Assembly (NCBI RefSeq): GCF_004011865.1
Contig: NZ_RKLP01000001.1
Span: forward strand, 1 to 64,000
Direction of reading: 5' to 3'
DNA from: Prescottella agglutinans
GTDB taxonomy: Bacteria > Actinomycetota > Actinomycetes > Mycobacteriales > Mycobacteriaceae
DNA length: 64,000 nt
Position numbers and translations under genes: made by a program. The notes under the pieces are model-generated. The model worked only from the letters and a program-made list of their open reading frames with translations, ran no database searches and was not told where the DNA came from. This document shows, in pieces, positions 26,659 to 50,090 of the stretch (its first letter is position 1; each line of letters begins with the position of its first letter).

Positions 26659-26721
26659 ATTCGACCGTCACCGATGGCATAATCAGCTGGTCCGACATTG
26701 GAACCGACAGATGGGACAGCG

Positions 26722-27408
26722 ATGACGCGCGAGGACGACCTGGCAGACCTGGGCGTGCTGCTGCCTTCGGGCAGTTCGGGACGCTCCGATCAGACGTCCA
26801 AGCAGTACCTGCGCCTGCGCGCCGACATCCTGGACGGCAAGTTCCCGCGCGGCGCCGCGCTGCACGAGACGCAACTGAGCGAGACGTACGGCGCCTCCCG
26901 CACCCCCATCCGCGAGGCGCTGAACTGGCTCGCCCACGACGGACTCCTCGAGCGCGCCGCACGGGGCTTCCGCGTGCGGTCCGGTACCGCGGAGGACGTC
27001 ATCGAGATCTACGCGGCGCGCGTGGCCCTCGAGTCCGAGGCGGCCGGCGCCGCCGCGCTCCGGCACACCGATCTCGACATGGCCCGCCTCGAGCGACTGC
27101 ACGACTCCTGCTGCCACACTGACGACGACGACGCGGCCCGCACGGACAACTTCCGCTTCCACGAGGCACTGTGGCAGGCGGCGCACAACACCACGATCAT
27201 GACGTTGCTGGTGCGGCTCACCACGCAGTTGCGGATCTACGACAGCGGCCCGCCGTCGAACTACGGCGAGCCGGACCTGCTGAACTCCGAGCACGAACTG
27301 ATCCTCGAGGCCCTGCGCGCCCGGGACGAGCGGGCCGCCCGCGAGCACATGCGCACCCACCTCGAGCACAGCCGGGAGCAGCGGATCCGCCTGTTCGCGA
27401 ACGGCTGA
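26722..27408 (+). CDS. GntR-family transcriptional regulator (FadR/FCD subgroup)
   Basis: This 228-residue repressor-type protein has an N-terminal winged helix (about 35-95: QYLRLRADILDGKFPRGAAL, then LSETYGASRTPIREALNWL) and an all-helical FCD ligand domain with VIEIYAARVALESEAAGAAA, FRFHEALWQAAHNT and HELILEALRARDERAAREHM. The histidines and aspartate in these helices could bind a metal and a carboxylate-type ligand. ATG 26722 has GGGACAG upstream; a TTG at 26698 would add 8 residues. It is divergent from the sulfurtransferase-thiM-LLM operon and has a palindrome between, so it probably controls that operon and itself. The ligand is unknown. Confidence 0.88.
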   Translation: MTREDDLADLGVLLPSGSSGRSDQTSKQYLRLRADILDGKFPRGAALHETQLSETYGASRTPIREALNWLAHDGLLERAARGFRVRSGTAEDVIEIYAARVALESEAAGAAALRHTDLDMARLERLHDSCCHTDDDDAARTDNFRFHEALWQAAHNTTIMTLLVRLTTQLRIYDSGPPSNYGEPDLLNSEHELILEALRARDERAAREHMRTHLEHSREQRIRLFANG

Positions 27409-27436: not shown

Positions 27437-27461
27437 GCCCGCGCGCACCGAGCGCGCGGGC
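27437..27461 (+). terminator. Hairpin terminator after GntR gene
   Basis: A 10-bp stem (GCCCGCGCGC / GCGCGCGGGC) followed by TTCTTCGT separates the regulator from the iron-box operon. Confidence 0.65.
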
Positions 27462-27492: not shown

Positions 27493-27531
27493 GTAGGTAA
27501 GCCTTACTTTAGTTATTGTATGCTCACCTAA
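27493..27531 (+). promoter_or_regulatory. Two tandem IdeR/DtxR-like iron boxes
   Basis: Box 1 (27493-27511, GTAGGTAAGCCTTACTTTA) and box 2 (27513-27531, TTATTGTATGCTCACCTAA) each agree with the 19-bp consensus TTAGGTTAGSCTAACCTAA at about 14 positions. They are phased 20 bp apart, as in tandem DtxR-family operators. They lie 75-113 bp upstream of the substrate-binding lipoprotein start, in the only AT-rich stretch nearby. Iron-dependent repression of the operon is inferred. Confidence 0.65.
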
Positions 27532-27605
27532 CCATCCACCCGCGGCTGGACGCGGCGGCGCTCGAACGGCGCACCGCGTCACCGTCCTTCTGCTCCGGAG
27601 CCTCG

Positions 27606-28763
27606 ATGCCCACCCCTCCCCACGCCCCCACTCCCCTCGCTCAGCTGACGCGTCGCGACCTCGTGCGTTCGATGGGTGTCGCGGCGCTCGCCCTCGGCGC
27701 GCTCGGCATCACCGCGTGCTCGAGCCGCGCGGCGGTGTCCGACGCCGCCGCGACCACCGCTGCCGGTGGCCCGATCTCCGTCGTCGACCAGTACGGGAAG
27801 ACCGTCAACTTCGACACCCCCGTCGGGCGGATCGCGTCGGCGATCATCCCGGTGCCGTCGATGATCATCGGCTCCGACCAGTCCACCGCGCGCAACGTCG
27901 GCGTCAACCAGGTCGCGATCTCCATGGCCTCGAAGGGAATGCTCGGCACGATGTTCCCGGAGTTCCTCGACACCCCGGTGGTGGCGGGCAACGACTTCGT
28001 CCCGAACGTCGAGCACATCCTGAGCCTGAACCCGGACGTCGTGATCCAGTGGGGCGACAAGGGCGACGACATCGTCGCGCCGCTGCGCAACGCGCGCCTG
28101 AAGGTGCTGCTGCTGAAATACGGCACGCAAGAGGATCTCGAGACCTGGATCCGGATCTTCGGCGATCTCCTCGACAAGAAGGCCGAGGCCGACGCAGTCC
28201 TCGCGACCATGGCCGCCGACCGCGCGCTGGTCGAGAAGACCGCCGCCGCGCACGCTTCCACCGCCCCACGCGCGATGTACCTCTACAACGCACCCGAGAT
28301 CAAGGTCGGCGCCGACAACAGCTACATGGACTTCTGGATCAAGCTCGCAGGCGGCAGGAACGTCGCGTCGGGCGCCGGCAGCGGATCGAGCCTGGGTGTC
28401 ACCCGCGAGCAGGTGCTCGGCTGGGATCCGGAGATCCTGATCCTCGGCAACTTCGAGCCGACCACCCCCGCCGACGTCTACGCCGACCCGAAGTGGGCCT
28501 CGCTGTCGGCGGTGAAGAACAAGCGGGTCTACAAGGCCCCGATCGGCGGTTTCTCGTGGGATCCGCCGTGCAACGAGTCGAACCTGATGTGGCTGTGGGT
28601 CAACTCGGTGTTCTTCCCCGACGCGAAGCACGAACTGCGCCAGCGCATCCGGGAGACGTACCGCACGCTGTACGCGTACGACGTCACCGACGCGGACATC
28701 GACCGCATCCTGCACATGCCGACCAACGGGGGCAGCACCGGCTATGACGCCTTCCGTGCTTGA
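27606..28763 (+). CDS. ABC transporter substrate-binding lipoprotein (siderophore/heme/cobalamin type)
   Basis: This 385-residue extracytoplasmic binding protein has a twin-arginine-like lipoprotein signal (LTRRDLVRSMG, hydrophobic stretch, then LGITAC with lipid-anchored Cys38). It has a class III (TroA/FhuD/BtuF) fold: ISVVDQYGKTVNFDTPVGRI, a long connecting helix, and IRIFGDLLDKKAEADAVL. ATG 27606 has GGAG 5 nt upstream. It is first in a five-gene coupled run with a FecCD permease, an ATPase and two amidotransferase-like proteins. Iron boxes upstream favour a ferric siderophore or heme ligand, but the ligand is not visible from sequence. Confidence 0.87.
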   Translation: MPTPPHAPTPLAQLTRRDLVRSMGVAALALGALGITACSSRAAVSDAAATTAAGGPISVVDQYGKTVNFDTPVGRIASAIIPVPSMIIGSDQSTARNVGVNQVAISMASKGMLGTMFPEFLDTPVVAGNDFVPNVEHILSLNPDVVIQWGDKGDDIVAPLRNARLKVLLLKYGTQEDLETWIRIFGDLLDKKAEADAVLATMAADRALVEKTAAAHASTAPRAMYLYNAPEIKVGADNSYMDFWIKLAGGRNVASGAGSGSSLGVTREQVLGWDPEILILGNFEPTTPADVYADPKWASLSAVKNKRVYKAPIGGFSWDPPCNESNLMWLWVNSVFFPDAKHELRQRIRETYRTLYAYDVTDADIDRILHMPTNGGSTGYDAFRA

Positions 28764-29805
28764 GGCGGCCACCGAGCAGCGGCCGCGGCGGTCGTCGCGC
28801 ATTCTGGTGCCGGTGGTCCTCACCGTCGGGATCGTCGCGGTCGGGCTGATCTCGCTGTCGGTGGGCCGCTACACGGTCCCGGTCAACGAGGTCGCCCGCA
28901 TCCTGATCAACGAGGTCATCGCACTCCCCCGCACGTGGACCGACGCCGAGTCCAACGTCGTTCTGGGCGTGCGGCTTCCACGGGTGCTGCTGGGGATGCT
29001 CGTCGGCGGCGGCCTGGCCCTCGGCGGTGCCGCGCTGCAGGCCGCGTTCCGCAACCCGCTGGTGAGCCCGCAGATCCTGGGTGTCTCCTCGGGCGCGTCG
29101 TTCGGCGGGGTGCTGGCACTGATGTTCGGGCTGGGGTCGACATTCCTCGTCGGGGGCGCGTTCCTGTTCGGCCTTGCCGCGCTGGGCCTGGTGCTGCTGA
29201 TCGGCCGGAGTCGGTCGGGCGGCGCGATCCTCATGATCGTGCTGGGCGGCGTGGTCACCAGCGCCTTCTTCTCGGCGCTCGTGTCGTTCATCACGTACGT
29301 CGCCGACCCGTACACGACGCTGCCGTCGATCGTGTTCTGGCTCATGGGATCCCTGGCCACCGCGGACATGGCGAAGGTCGCGATCGCGGCGGTCCCGATC
29401 CTCGCCGGTTCCGCCGTCGTCATCGGACTGCGCTGGCGGATCAACATCCTCTCGCTCGGCGACGACGACGCCGCCTCGCTCGGGGTGAATCCGGGACGGC
29501 TGCGGGCCGTGCTGCTGACGATGGTGGCGCTGATGACCGCCGGCGCGGTCGCCGTGTCCGGCGTGATCGGTTGGGTGGGCCTGGTGGTCCCGCACATCGC
29601 CCGACTGTGGGTGGGCCCGGATCACCGGATCTCGATGCCGACGACGGTCGTGCTCGGCGCCGCGTACCTGACGATCATCGACACGCTCTCGCGCACCGTC
29701 AGTGCCGGAGAGATCCCGCTCGGCATCCTCACCGCGATCATCGGTGCCCCCGTGTTCGTTCTGCTCCTTCGGAATTCGCGTAGACAGGCTTTCATCGATG
29801 CTTGA
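28744..29805 (+). CDS. FecCD-type ABC transporter permease
   Basis: This 353-residue polytopic inner-membrane protein of the BtuC/FecCD family has roughly ten hydrophobic helices. Family motifs are VRLPRVLLGMLVGGGLALGG, LQAAFRNPLVSPQILGVSSG, VSGVIGWVGLVVPHIAR and the C-terminal GEIPLGILTAIIGAPVFVLLL. The ATG at 28744 overlaps the end of the lipoprotein gene by 20 bp; a GTG at 28756 is an alternative. Only one permease gene is present, so a homodimer is expected. It imports the ligand captured by the upstream lipoprotein. Confidence 0.92.
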   Translation: MTPSVLEAATEQRPRRSSRILVPVVLTVGIVAVGLISLSVGRYTVPVNEVARILINEVIALPRTWTDAESNVVLGVRLPRVLLGMLVGGGLALGGAALQAAFRNPLVSPQILGVSSGASFGGVLALMFGLGSTFLVGGAFLFGLAALGLVLLIGRSRSGGAILMIVLGGVVTSAFFSALVSFITYVADPYTTLPSIVFWLMGSLATADMAKVAIAAVPILAGSAVVIGLRWRINILSLGDDDAASLGVNPGRLRAVLLTMVALMTAGAVAVSGVIGWVGLVVPHIARLWVGPDHRISMPTTVVLGAAYLTIIDTLSRTVSAGEIPLGILTAIIGAPVFVLLLRNSRRQAFIDA

Positions 29806-30586
29806 GATCCACGATGCGGGCTTCCACTACCCGCGCCGCGACTGGGTGTTCCGGCACGCGAACCTGCGCATCGACAGTGGCATCACGTCGATCCTCGGCC
29901 CCAACGGCCAGGGCAAGACGACACTGCTTCGGTGCATCGCCGGGCTGACCCCGCTACGCGAGGGGCGCGTCGAGCGGGACACCGCGATCGGCTACGTCCC
30001 GCAGGCCGGCCTGTCGAGTTTCGCGTACTCGGTGTTCGACATGGTCCTCATGGGACGGGCGAAGAAGGTGTCGGCCTTCGCGACACCCGGCCGAGCCGAC
30101 ATCGCCCGCACCCGCGCGGTCCTCGACCGGGTCGGCATCACCGATCTCGCCGCCCGCAGCTTCGCCGAACTGTCCGGCGGCCAGCGCCAACTCGTGCTCA
30201 TCGCGCGGGCGCTGGCCTCGGACGCCGAGTTCATGATCCTCGACGAACCCGTCTCGGCACTGGACCTGCGCAACCAGGCGCGGGTACTCGAACTGCTGCG
30301 CGATCTGGCCGCGGACGGCATGGGCGTCCTGCTCACCACCCACCACCCGGATCACGCGCTGCACCTGGGTGGGCGCGCGATCGTGATGCGCTCGCCCGAG
30401 GACATCCGGATCGGGGCCGTCACCGAACTGGTCACCGACGACATGCTCACCGAGCTGTACGGCATCGAGGTGGTGAGCGCGACCGTCGACGACCGCGGCG
30501 GACCGCGCACCGTCCTCTACACCCGCTACGACACCTTCGCGGCCGCCACCCCGGCCGCGGACACTCTCCAGAAGGCCTCACGATGA
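29798..30586 (+). CDS. ABC transporter ATP-binding protein (FepC/BtuD type)
   Basis: This 262-residue ATPase partner of the FecCD permease has Walker A GPNGQGKT (34-41), Q-loop GYVPQAG, signature LSGGQRQ, Walker B FMILDEP and the H-loop in LLTTHHPDHAL. It overlaps the permease stop by 8 bp and its own stop overlaps the next ATG (ATGA). The C-terminal 40 residues (VDDRGGPRTVLYTRYDTF) extend past the usual domain end. The three ABC genes form one import system; two further proteins of the operon are coupled to this gene. Confidence 0.93.
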   Translation: MLEIHDAGFHYPRRDWVFRHANLRIDSGITSILGPNGQGKTTLLRCIAGLTPLREGRVERDTAIGYVPQAGLSSFAYSVFDMVLMGRAKKVSAFATPGRADIARTRAVLDRVGITDLAARSFAELSGGQRQLVLIARALASDAEFMILDEPVSALDLRNQARVLELLRDLAADGMGVLLTTHHPDHALHLGGRAIVMRSPEDIRIGAVTELVTDDMLTELYGIEVVSATVDDRGGPRTVLYTRYDTFAAATPAADTLQKASR

Positions 30587-31218
30587 CTCTCGACACGACT
30601 GCGCCGCAGTCACTTCCACCGGTCCTGCACCTGGTGATGGGATCGAACACCGGAATGTCCGGCGGCACCGCCGCCGGCAAGCGGGTCCGGCCCGTCGATC
30701 TCTACGACCTCGACCGCCTCGCCCTCGACGGCGTCCGCGGCCTGCTGGTCAACGGCAACTGCGACCAGATCTTCCTCGAACGCCGCCGCGTTCTGCTCAC
30801 GGACTTCGTCACCGCCGGCGGCCGGGTCGCGGTCATGGGCCATCCGCTCACCGACTTCCTGCCGGGGCTGGGCCAGTGGCGCAAGCTGCAGTACTCGGGC
30901 CCCAAGGACCTCGCGATCATCGCCGGCGACCCGCACCCGGTGTGGGAAGGTGCCGACACCGCCGACGTCAGTTTCCGCCGCGGGGTGTCCGGGTTCTACG
31001 CCCGCGGTTACAGCCAGAAGCTGCCGGACGACGCCGTCGTCACCACCCGCATCGGTCGGCACGCGCTACCGGTCGACTACGTCTACCCACTGGGGTCGGG
31101 TGAGGTCCTGGTCCACGGCGGCCTCGATCTGGCCGTGTACCAGGAGGATCCGAACACCTCCGCCCGTATCTTCCCCCAGCTGCTGACGTGGCTGGCCCGT
31201 CAGGAGGCACAGGCATGA
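30583..31218 (+). CDS. Class I glutamine-amidotransferase-like (ThuA-like) protein, first of tandem pair
   Basis: This 211-residue soluble alpha/beta protein is of flavodoxin/GATase-like topology. It has VLHLVMGSNTGMSGG at the first strand, LALDGVRGLLVNGNCDQIFL, the strand-turn GGRVAVMGHPLTDFLPGL, and the C-terminal GEVLVHGGLDLAVYQED followed by a closing helix. No clear G-x-C-x-G nucleophile elbow is seen, so amidotransferase activity is doubtful. The next gene is a diverged paralogue with the same order of elements, so the two may form a heterodimer. ATG 30583 overlaps the ATPase stop. A link to use of the imported iron complex is inferred only from the operon. Confidence 0.6.
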   Translation: MTLDTTAPQSLPPVLHLVMGSNTGMSGGTAAGKRVRPVDLYDLDRLALDGVRGLLVNGNCDQIFLERRRVLLTDFVTAGGRVAVMGHPLTDFLPGLGQWRKLQYSGPKDLAIIAGDPHPVWEGADTADVSFRRGVSGFYARGYSQKLPDDAVVTTRIGRHALPVDYVYPLGSGEVLVHGGLDLAVYQEDPNTSARIFPQLLTWLARQEAQA

Positions 31219-31907
31219 CCGCCACCGAACCGACCGTCGAGCCCTTCGCCCGCACCGACCGCGCGCCGCGCTCGCGGCGCCGACTCGCACTGGTGCACGG
31301 CGGATCCCACTTCCACCTGCAGACGTCGAAGGATCCGGCGGTCATTGTGCACCAGCCCGAGTTCGTCTACCTCGCCGATCTCGCGGACGGCGACCTCGAC
31401 GCGTTCGACACGGTGATCCTCGCCGACCGCCTGCATCCCGAACTGCTGCGCCGACACACCCCGCAGATCCTCGCGGTCGCCGAGCGCGGCGGGACGCTCG
31501 TCGTCCTCGGTGAGAACGCCGCGCACACGTGGCTGCCGGGCGTGACGTGGACGGCGCGGCCCACCAACTTCTGGTGGTGGCTCGAGGGCGAGGACCCGCT
31601 GATCCGCACCCGCAGCCCCGAACACGATGCGTGGGAGTACCTTTCGACGAAGTCGGTGATCTGGCACCACCACGGTCTGCTGCACACCGACGCCGACGTC
31701 GTCCCGTTGCTCGTCTCGGAGGAGCCCGACGAGAGCGGCGACCTCCGCGACGCCGGGATGATCCTCTACGAGGACACCGTCACCACCGCGGGCCGAATCA
31801 TCGCGACCACGCTCGACCCGACGTACCACCACGGCAACAACTTCATGCCGGGCTCGACCCGCTTCCTGTACGCGCTGCTGCGCTGGCTGGACAACACCGG
31901 CAGTTGA
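31215..31907 (+). CDS. Class I glutamine-amidotransferase-like (ThuA-like) protein, second of tandem pair
   Basis: This 230-residue partner of the preceding gene repeats its plan: RRLALVHGGSHFHLQT as first strand, LDAFDTVILADRLHPELL, GGTLVVLGENAAHTWLPGV, and GRIIATTLDPTYHHGNNFMPGS before a closing LLRWLD helix. Extra features are the aromatic segment ARPTNFWWWLEGEDPL and several histidines (IWHHHGLLH, YHHGNNF) that could bind metal. The nucleophilic cysteine of true amidotransferases is absent. ATG 31215 overlaps the previous stop (ATGA). It is the last gene of the iron-box operon and is followed by a terminator. Its function is unknown. Confidence 0.6.
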   Translation: MTATEPTVEPFARTDRAPRSRRRLALVHGGSHFHLQTSKDPAVIVHQPEFVYLADLADGDLDAFDTVILADRLHPELLRRHTPQILAVAERGGTLVVLGENAAHTWLPGVTWTARPTNFWWWLEGEDPLIRTRSPEHDAWEYLSTKSVIWHHHGLLHTDADVVPLLVSEEPDESGDLRDAGMILYEDTVTTAGRIIATTLDPTYHHGNNFMPGSTRFLYALLRWLDNTGS

Positions 31908-31979: not shown

Positions 31980-33071
31980 TCAGCTACCCGCGCCCGGGAA
32001 CAGCTGGGACAGCGATCCGGTGATCTGTTCCAGGGAACCGGTTCCCGGGTCGGGTCCGGGGATCGGGCTGTGGATCGCGATCGTGTTGGCGCCGCCCGCC
32101 GCGATCGCCGTGTAGATCCGCCCCTCCGGCGGTGCGGGGATGTTCAACTGCCCCTTGTCGTTCTGGCCGGTGGTCACGACCTGGCCGGTCGAGGTGAGCG
32201 CAGCGGAGTGGAAGGTGCCCGCGGAAATCGCGGTGTACGTCTGCCCCGCCGGGAAGGCGAGTTGCAGGTTTCCGGCGGAGCCCCACCCGACGATCTGGCC
32301 GCCGGAGGTCAGTGCGAGCGCGTGGAACGGACCGGCCGCGATCGCGGTGTACGTCTGCCCCGCCGGCGCCGGAGGCGCGGATGCACCGTTGTTCTTCGAC
32401 CCCCATTCGACGATCTCACCCGCCGAGGTCAGCGCGATGGAGTTGAACGTGCCGGCCGCGACCGCCGTGTACGTCTGCCCGTCGGGCGGCGGCGGCACGT
32501 CGGTCTGGCCCTGGGCGTTGTTGCCGAACGCGACCACCTGGCCCGCCGACGTCAGCGCCAGCGTGTGTCCCCCGCCGCCTGCGGAGATCGCCGTGTACGT
32601 CTGACCGGCCGGAAGTGCCGGCGCGACGGTCTCCCCGTAGCCGCCGTCGCCGACACCGACGATCCGGCCCGCGGACGTCAGCATGATCGATGCCGAACCA
32701 CCGGCGGAGACTGCCGTGTACTTCTGCCCCTCGGGCAGTGCCGGAATGTCGAGCCTCCCCAGCTGATCGAGACCGAACCCGACGACCTGCCCGCCGGAGG
32801 TCAGCGCCAACGTGTGGAAGGTGTTCGTCGACACCGCGGTAAAGGTCTGCCCCGCAGGTGGGGCCGGCGGAGTGGTGGCGCCGTACGCGGTGTCGCCGGC
32901 ACCGACGGCGACACCGCCCGGCAGCACCGGAACACCCGAGGGTGCCGCTCCCGCTGTCGCCACCAGTCCCGTCATCGCGGTCATCGCGAGCAGCGGCGTG
33001 ACCACCGCCCGCCGCGCCAATCGGACGCGCAGACCGGCCGGATGGCCTCTTCGATTCGATCCAATCCTCAC
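31980..33071 (-). CDS. Secreted RCC1-like beta-propeller repeat protein
   Basis: This 363-residue exported protein has a basic N-terminus with a Tat/Sec-like signal (ARRAVVTPLLAMTAMTGLVATAGAA). At least six or seven tandem blade repeats of about 40-45 residues follow, with the pattern AGQTYTAISAGxFHxLALTSxGQVVGWG. This matches RCC1/BNR-type propellers. It ends in a Pro-Gly-rich tail. The GTG at 33069-33071 was chosen because GAGAGGAG lies 6 nt upstream. The repeats are highly similar to one another, suggesting recent duplication. RCC1 propellers bind proteins or glycans; no enzyme motif is seen. It is flanked by the convergent iron-box operon and an upstream LuxR-type regulator. Confidence 0.85.
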   Translation of the reverse strand: MRIGSNRRGHPAGLRVRLARRAVVTPLLAMTAMTGLVATAGAAPSGVPVLPGGVAVGAGDTAYGATTPPAPPAGQTFTAVSTNTFHTLALTSGGQVVGFGLDQLGRLDIPALPEGQKYTAVSAGGSASIMLTSAGRIVGVGDGGYGETVAPALPAGQTYTAISAGGGGHTLALTSAGQVVAFGNNAQGQTDVPPPPDGQTYTAVAAGTFNSIALTSAGEIVEWGSKNNGASAPPAPAGQTYTAIAAGPFHALALTSGGQIVGWGSAGNLQLAFPAGQTYTAISAGTFHSAALTSTGQVVTTGQNDKGQLNIPAPPEGRIYTAIAAGGANTIAIHSPIPGPDPGTGSLEQITGSLSQLFPGAGS

Positions 33072-33284
33072 AGAGCTCTCCTCTCCAATCGGACTCGAAT
33101 TCCCGCACGAGCCGTCGGTGATGCCGAGGGGCGGGAATGCAGCCATGATGACACCGACGATCCCGGGCCTGTCAGCGGAATCGAAAAGTCCAGTGCCACC
33201 GAGCATTCGGAAAAGTCATCGACATCAGGACCGAATCGTCACGAAATTCACTGCGTCACAGACATCTTCAGATGAGTCGAATGA

Positions 33285-49654: not shown

Positions 49655-50090
<436 letters not shown>

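Follow-up and report, generated by a model that had tools for sequence, protein, structure and literature searches.

The 64,000-nucleotide stretch of Prescottella agglutinans DNA analysed here (the window) carries a five-gene operon. Its first three genes encode an ATP-binding cassette (ABC) importer of the iron-chelate type, and its last two, orf4 and orf5, encode paralogous proteins with a predicted class I amidotransferase/ThuA-like fold. The transport parts are ordinary; what is new is that an operon for iron-chelate import also encodes an uncharacterised cytoplasmic pair. The odds appear evenly balanced that the five genes form an iron-repressed unit for importing an iron chelate, which is then handled in the cytoplasm by this pair. 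An initial annotation, made from the letters of the DNA, had singled out the operon; its observation is confirmed and its interpretation is partly supported.

The operon and its last two genes

The five genes lie on the plus strand in one overlapping run (Table 1), as the initial annotation had it, with successive overlaps of 20, 8, 4 and 4 bases. Its description of the first three products as a Tat-like lipoprotein, a FecCD permease and an ATPase also holds. Each scores above the curated Pfam cut-off, which gives the full part set of a FecBCD-type importer, and the N-terminus of the substrate-binding protein (SBP) displays a twin arginine and a lipobox when read by eye (TRRDLVR ... GITAC). 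The permease is one of six FecCD matches in the P. agglutinans genome. From the families of these parts, the operon is predicted to transport an iron chelate.

The remaining two proteins are not recognised by family models: orf4 has no Pfam match, orf5 matches only Ribosomal_L27 at a chance-level E of 0.24, and neither has an NCBIfam match. No sequence relative in the PDB was found below E 0.07 for orf4, orf5, their profiles or one FmdE protein. Export signals are absent from both proteins, as judged by eye. Pairwise BLASTP detects no likeness between orf4 and orf5 (E 0.90). Their family alignments are homologous (hhalign probability 99.5%, E 4.1e-22), and the iterated profiles of orf4 and orf5 match 210 and 211 open reading frames (ORFs), 210 of them in common, such profiles blending both families as they grow. 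Predicted models, none of them of the window orf5 itself, indicate a class I amidotransferase/ThuA-like alpha/beta fold for the pair. A mixed alignment (A1) was kept out of folding because the rows of both paralogues seemed to be aligned to one half. The mutual relationship and the ThuA/GATase-like character proposed initially are thus borne out by the profile comparison and the predicted fold. Membership of the ThuA family (PF06283) by sequence was ruled out, as the window proteins have no match at E <= 5; weak PF06283 matches occur in 3 of 42 orf5 and 1 of 43 orf4 family members, the best at 0.0027.

The pair had also been said to lack an amidotransferase cysteine, and no alignment column contains cysteine in at least 60% of its rows (42 or 43 rows). 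An active class I glutamine amidotransferase was ruled out in turn, since the fold is present but the nucleophilic cysteine of the triad is not conserved. Other residues are strongly constrained: 16 positions of orf5 are invariant across 42 rows from several phyla, including the motifs NF-WW and WH-H. Among them are N118, W121, W122, W150, H151, H153, D201 and H205, the histidines, which the initial annotation had seen as clustered in the second protein, being present in 42 of 42 rows.

Table 1. Positions of the boxes and genes of the operon in the window
Feature	Position	Strand	Support
IdeR/DtxR-like box 1, GTAGGTAAGCCTTACTTTA	27493..27511	+	14/19 consensus match
IdeR/DtxR-like box 2, TTATTGTATGCTCACCTAA	27513..27531	+	14/19 consensus match
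SBP, Tat-type lipoprotein, iron-chelate type, 385 aa	27606..28763	+	Peripla_BP_2 E 2.7e-23 (Pfam)
FecCD-family permease, 353 aa	28744..29805	+	FecCD E 1.1e-84 (Pfam)
ABC ATPase, 262 aa	29798..30586	+	ABC_tran E 1.5e-22 (Pfam)
orf4, first GATase/ThuA-fold paralogue, 211 aa	30583..31218	+	
orf5, second GATase/ThuA-fold paralogue, 230 aa	31215..31907	+	

Relatives of the pair and their importers

Genome contigs were scanned with peptide patterns from the window orf5, which gave 104 confirmed relatives; the best 80 of these underlie the counts given here (loci are designated by L numbers). The relatives belong to Bacillota, Actinomycetota, Pseudomonadota and Chloroflexota; further ones, in Aliivibrio and the haloarchaeon Natribaculum, were found on plasmid records. 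For the listed plasmid rows, the annotation under the match reads 'hypothetical protein', two rows include the neighbouring ATPase, and several rows are featureless. The nearest relatives of orf5 come from Prescottella equi and its kin (91-95% identity). The family is patchy, being present in 22 of 201 near-relative genomes and in 3 of 396 genomes sampled evenly across the phylum.

The two genes are adjacent or fused in 78 of the 80 relatives: 69 loci have only an adjacent same-strand tandem pair, 7 only a fusion and 2 both. The two loci with neither clean form are L064, in which a DUF2325 gene splits the pair, and L124. Fusions exist in both orders, 4-5 in L109 and in the Agrobacterium locus L129, and 5-4 in Aliivibrio (L130), Shinella (L128) and L118. 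One Paenibacillus locus contains three pairs (L065:3557-8633), and a Rhodococcus locus (L051:4284-14429) combines a FecCD operon and its pair with a single orf4, a fused pair, two FmdE-like genes and a portion of an Opp importer, all next to one another.

The importers vary. FecCD was found in 41 of the 80 loci and OppB (Nik/Opp type) in 28, with both in one locus; a BLAST score of 60 bits against a single reference set was the threshold for these labels, and L051 is labelled FecCD only, though a cut-off Opp importer lies there as well. A pair ORF and the importer ORF closest to it are no more than 213 bases apart in 60 of these 68 loci. With six matches in the 5.4-Mb P. agglutinans genome, a 16.6 kb stretch would contain FecCD by chance with a probability of about 0.02. 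Ssu-type importers, FptX-like transporters of the major facilitator superfamily (MFS) and Phn/Fbp-like importers occur in a few loci: the Chelatococcus locus encodes an SsuA-family binding protein above the cut-off, the Natribaculum locus a Phn/Fbp-like importer, and in L060 an RhtX/FptX-like MFS gene follows the pair (178.6 bits, below the curated 356), the Opp label of this locus coming from genes at its far end. L064, one of 12 loci without a FecCD or OppB label, is a 5 kb contig. An Opp-type ATPase adjoins the pair in L097, and an ATPase lies near it in L059, L061 and L062 (by eye in L059 and L062), L061 also having an NMT1-type binding protein. The Opp importers rule out a role of the pair as a FecCD-specific partner, and the initial annotation, which had coupled it to that importer type, has to be amended in this respect.

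Within the genus, the permease orthologue (91-100% identity) is present in 7 of 7 genomes with the pair, and only permease paralogues of at most 44% occur in 7 of 7 genomes that lack the pair, of which one is 79% complete. At the level of the family, four genomes with an orf5 of 71-76% identity carry Opp and FmdE genes and no permease above 46%, and two genomes with a FecCD permease of 61-64% have an orf5 of only 44-48%. As orf5 was kept with Opp and the permease was kept with a distant orf5, the importer has been exchanged while the pair stayed. An orf5 tree of 97 rows, built by a quick method, has 15 changes of importer class among its 93 labelled rows, at least one of which is a labelling artefact (L051_10416, labelled FecCD, has Opp genes next to it); the Ssu labels of L059 and L062 were given by eye, and long branches are unsure. 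In L029 (genome G013), the complete pair is accompanied only by a short binding-protein piece and a permease match without the first 42 residues, and the importer there looks damaged or mis-assembled.

The constancy of the pair beside unrelated importers would also suit a cytoplasmic acceptor or chaperone without catalytic activity, to which the importer hands over iron or the intact chelate. Such a role is in keeping with the amidotransferase cysteine being conserved in neither protein and with conserved His, Asp and Trp residues suited to metal or chelate binding. However, a chaperone that docks to the importer must fit several importer families, and the 16 invariant positions of orf5, with NF-WW and WH-H, suggest in our judgement a reaction site rather than a binding surface. 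The acceptor role is regarded as rather unlikely.

Iron-type sites and putative iron response

The tandem IdeR/DtxR-like boxes reported initially in front of the operon are the only sites of at least 13/19 in the 64 kb, where 0.3 would be expected (20 first-order Markov simulations). With putative operators upstream that are conserved in relatives, the operon is a candidate member of an IdeR/DtxR regulon. Sites of at least 14/19 lie upstream in the genus members L025-L028 and L030, and none in L029. The 35 actinobacterial loci hold 40 IdeR-like sites of at least 14/19 near operon starts in 49,838 bases, against 2 in 501,835 other bases, which is a density about 200 times that elsewhere in those loci; 27 of the 35 loci have such a site near the operon. 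The count covers 200 bases on either side of the stop-to-stop ORF ends, so that the site of L049, just before its importer, was scored outside, and it excludes L045-L047, L055 and L092, which are second copies of L025-L027, L030 and L040.

In Bacillota, the corresponding site is a Fur box. Upstream regions were chosen by hand for 38 loci (L081 was left out), and a match of at least 12/14 was found in 37 of them and of at least 13/14 in 29. Sites of the latter quality number 33 in 15,630 upstream bases and 17 in the remaining 596,579 bases, a 74-fold higher density upstream. FecCD-type and Opp-type loci both have iron-type sites. The initial annotation had made its reading depend on boxes conserved in relatives, and iron-type sites are indeed enriched at the relatives in Actinomycetota and Bacillota.

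Stand-alone pairs have such sites too, of the Fur type in L076 and L095 and of the IdeR type in L106 and L124. They bear on the idea that the pair regulates or gates the importer, for example by trans-inhibition, for which the overlap of the window pair genes with the ATPase gene could be cited. Pairs that stand alone under iron-type boxes speak against a gate, as do linked importers from unrelated families, and this idea is highly improbable. Four loci have a LysR-type gene close to the pair with a perfect Fur-box match of its own (L112 at 6039, L114 at 6047, L120 at 6018 and L095 at 6125).

The best Fur-type site before the Aliivibrio operon (L130) scores 11/14, which was reached in 61 of 500 shuffles. 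The ORFs of this locus were taken to be VSAL_p320_27-29 of Aliivibrio salmonicida because the plasmid name and the gene products agree. In the microarray passages of PMC4324432, VSAL_p320_27 is up 2.4-fold (p 0.01) and VSAL_p320_29 1.7-fold (p 0.07) 15 min after addition of 50 μM 2,2'-dipyridyl. A term search of the main text of a fur-mutant paper (PMC5511505) returned no 'p320' genes.

Proposed function, neighbouring genes and known systems

A third gene, FmdE-like, recurs in 30 of the 80 loci and in the plasmid records L126, L129 (two genes), L132 and L133. Matches to PF02663 at E <= 0.01 were obtained for 8 of 19 members, the best at 4.9e-5, and the scores shown (22.5 bits in L099, 19.9 and 14.7) all lie under the curated cut-off of 22.9. 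None was found in the P. agglutinans genome by single-protein and alignment searches, or in the window by a profile. According to the relevant passages of PMC2954224, one of three PF02663 structures binds zinc and another zinc/nickel at a putative active site, and most PF02663 genes adjoin metal-ion transporters.

The pair, often with FmdE, might instead make a small metallophore, whose loaded form the linked importer would retrieve. The Opp importer of L099 resembles nickel and staphylopine importers, under the curated cut-offs; in Bacilli loci, the added FtsE/FtsX-like genes and secreted coiled-coil protein could serve export, and the RhtX/FptX-like MFS gene stands beside the pair in L060. 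A synthetic role nevertheless sits badly with the window operon, which has no exporter or recognisable assembly enzyme, and with a genome in which FmdE was not found; in addition, one ligand would need several unrelated importers. Metallophore synthesis therefore has little probability.

The preferred reading remains that of import followed by cytoplasmic handling of an iron complex. At low iron, IdeR would leave both boxes, and the lipoprotein, the FecCD permease and the ATPase would import the complex, which may be siderophore-like or haem. The products of orf4 and orf5, two ThuA-like domains without the cysteine, would associate in the cytoplasm as a heterodimer in which H151, H153, D201, H205 and N118 of orf5, completed by orf4, may bind the iron complex. 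The pair would probably cleave or remodel the ligand, leading to release of the iron, and the FmdE-like metal-site protein may take part in many relatives. The pair would be the constant part of this arrangement and the importer an interchangeable one. A cytoplasmic heteromer acting on or accepting an iron complex is suggested by the gene order, the absence of export signals, the constant pair as opposed to several importer families, the fusions and the conserved His, Asp and Trp residues. The initial annotation had likewise proposed that the pair may process or release the chelate once imported, or serve as a receptor inside the cell. A wider proposal is made more tentatively and with somewhat less confidence than an even chance. 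It holds that an undescribed iron-acquisition pathway, present in several bacterial phyla and on at least one haloarchaeal plasmid, has the pair as its catalytic core. The pair would be a heterodimeric metalloenzyme of ThuA fold that lacks the cysteine and is often helped by an FmdE-like protein, and it would free iron from a single class of chelate, irrespective of the importer family that delivers it (FecCD, Nik/Opp, Ssu, Phn/Fbp-like or FptX-like).

Several points weigh against the preferred reading. The 80 loci were selected by likeness to the window orf5, many are close kin, and they are hence not independent. No IdeR-like site was found near the operon in 8 of the 35 actinobacterial loci (L029, L040, L044, L049, L051, L057, L070 and L097). 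A Bacillus-type Fur box of at least 12/14, the only iron-regulator motif applied there, is absent in 23 of 24 non-Bacillota loci; the 24 are mostly alphaproteobacterial, with the Aliivibrio locus and three Thalassospira pairs that stand alone among them. The passages of PMC4324432 on the p320 importer genes do not name the fused A. salmonicida gene. No importer was seen within the available locus sequence in 7 of the 80 loci (L072, L074, L076, L078, L095, L106 and L124); they are a minority, so that the paralogues are not commonly found apart from a transporter, which the initial annotation had named as a refuting observation. FmdE is not essential to the module, because the searches of the P. 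agglutinans genome showed none. On the structural side, a shared fold is no proof of function, the model of the fusion has a pTM of 0.70, which makes the domain placement uncertain, and the putative His/Asp cluster of orf5 was deduced from conservation and not from coordinates.

Neighbouring genes give substrate clues that point both ways. A siderophore is suggested by a TonB siderophore receptor in the Methylocystis locus L126 and by the FptX-like MFS gene of L060, haem by HemP in the same Methylocystis locus and by a haemoglobin-type receptor near the Chelatococcus locus L125. A riboswitch that would name the substrate was ruled out in eight Bacillota loci, which at gathering score yielded only two tRNAs and one c-di-GMP-II aptamer, the latter past the 3' end of the importer genes of L088 (2934-3017). 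Fur-boxed Opp operons of Bacilli carry genes for FtsE-like, FtsX-like and secreted coiled-coil proteins (L099:8614-11084; also L065, L083, L086, L109, L116 and L121), which may constitute a specialised FtsEX-like unit tied to iron. In L129 (11125-12411) and L132 (12334-13875), the C-P lyase system genes for PhnG and PhnH come immediately after the FecCD importer and an FmdE-like gene, with a fused pair nearby.

In the window, a GntR/FCD regulator gene (26698-27408) precedes the five-gene run and an opposite-strand ORF follows it. Consensus scans around the boxes and 3' of orf5 gave no sigma-70-like promoter or terminator. A perfect 10-bp G+C hairpin with a loop of 5, followed by TTCTTCGT, lies between the GntR gene and the boxes (27437-27461); it perhaps ends the GntR transcript, although the consensus scan gave no call there. 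The ORF directly downstream (31980-33206, minus strand) appears by eye to encode a repetitive, probably secreted protein, and P. equi (L046) and P. defluvii (L055) carry an FmdE-like gene at this place. The only structured RNA of the window at gathering score is a class A RNase P RNA (49657-50084, minus strand, 256 bits).

The importer has the same three transport parts as FecBCD/FhuBCD/HmuTUV-type iron-chelate ABC importers; unlike these, the window operon adds two unannotated genes in an overlapping run, and the pair also accompanies non-FecCD importers. Within the class I glutamine amidotransferase-like superfamily (STM3548/STM1381 and the ThuA-like 1t0b and 3rht), to whose members it is 7-18% identical in the listed alignments, the pair differs in having no conserved cysteine, in consisting of two diverged paralogues that are nearly always together, and in its iron-type boxes. 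Fes, IroE, FhuF, IsdG and HmuS release iron in the cytoplasm during siderophore or haem uptake and have a fold class different from that of the pair. The place proposed for the pair in the pathway would be the same, but no Pfam or NCBIfam model for proteins of this kind matches orf4 or orf5. The FmdE family (PF02663) provides the recurring third gene in relatives, yet the members stay below its cut-off where scores are shown, and P. agglutinans appears to lack it. The Aliivibrio operon on pVSAL320 is a FecCD operon that ends in a fused homologue of the pair, this homologue being one protein with domain order 5-4. Rhodococcus equi iupABC (REQ24080-100), an iron-linked ABC importer from the same genus, was compared by description only, in the pertinent passages of PMC2947987 and PMC6948317, the former of which gives it as homologous to FxuABC. 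In agreement with the initial annotation, which recognised no described system of this layout, none was found in the open-licence full-text literature, nor was any description of the pair in searches that were not all aimed at it and that left subscription papers mostly outside.

Much of the annotation of iron uptake leans on the importer; here, the importer varies and the unannotated pair is constant. The pair therefore marks an iron-linked pathway that annotation by importer would split into 'siderophore', 'nickel/peptide' and 'sulfonate' systems. If it acts on the chelate, it would represent a new route of iron release and may aid in finding the substrates of several orphan importers.

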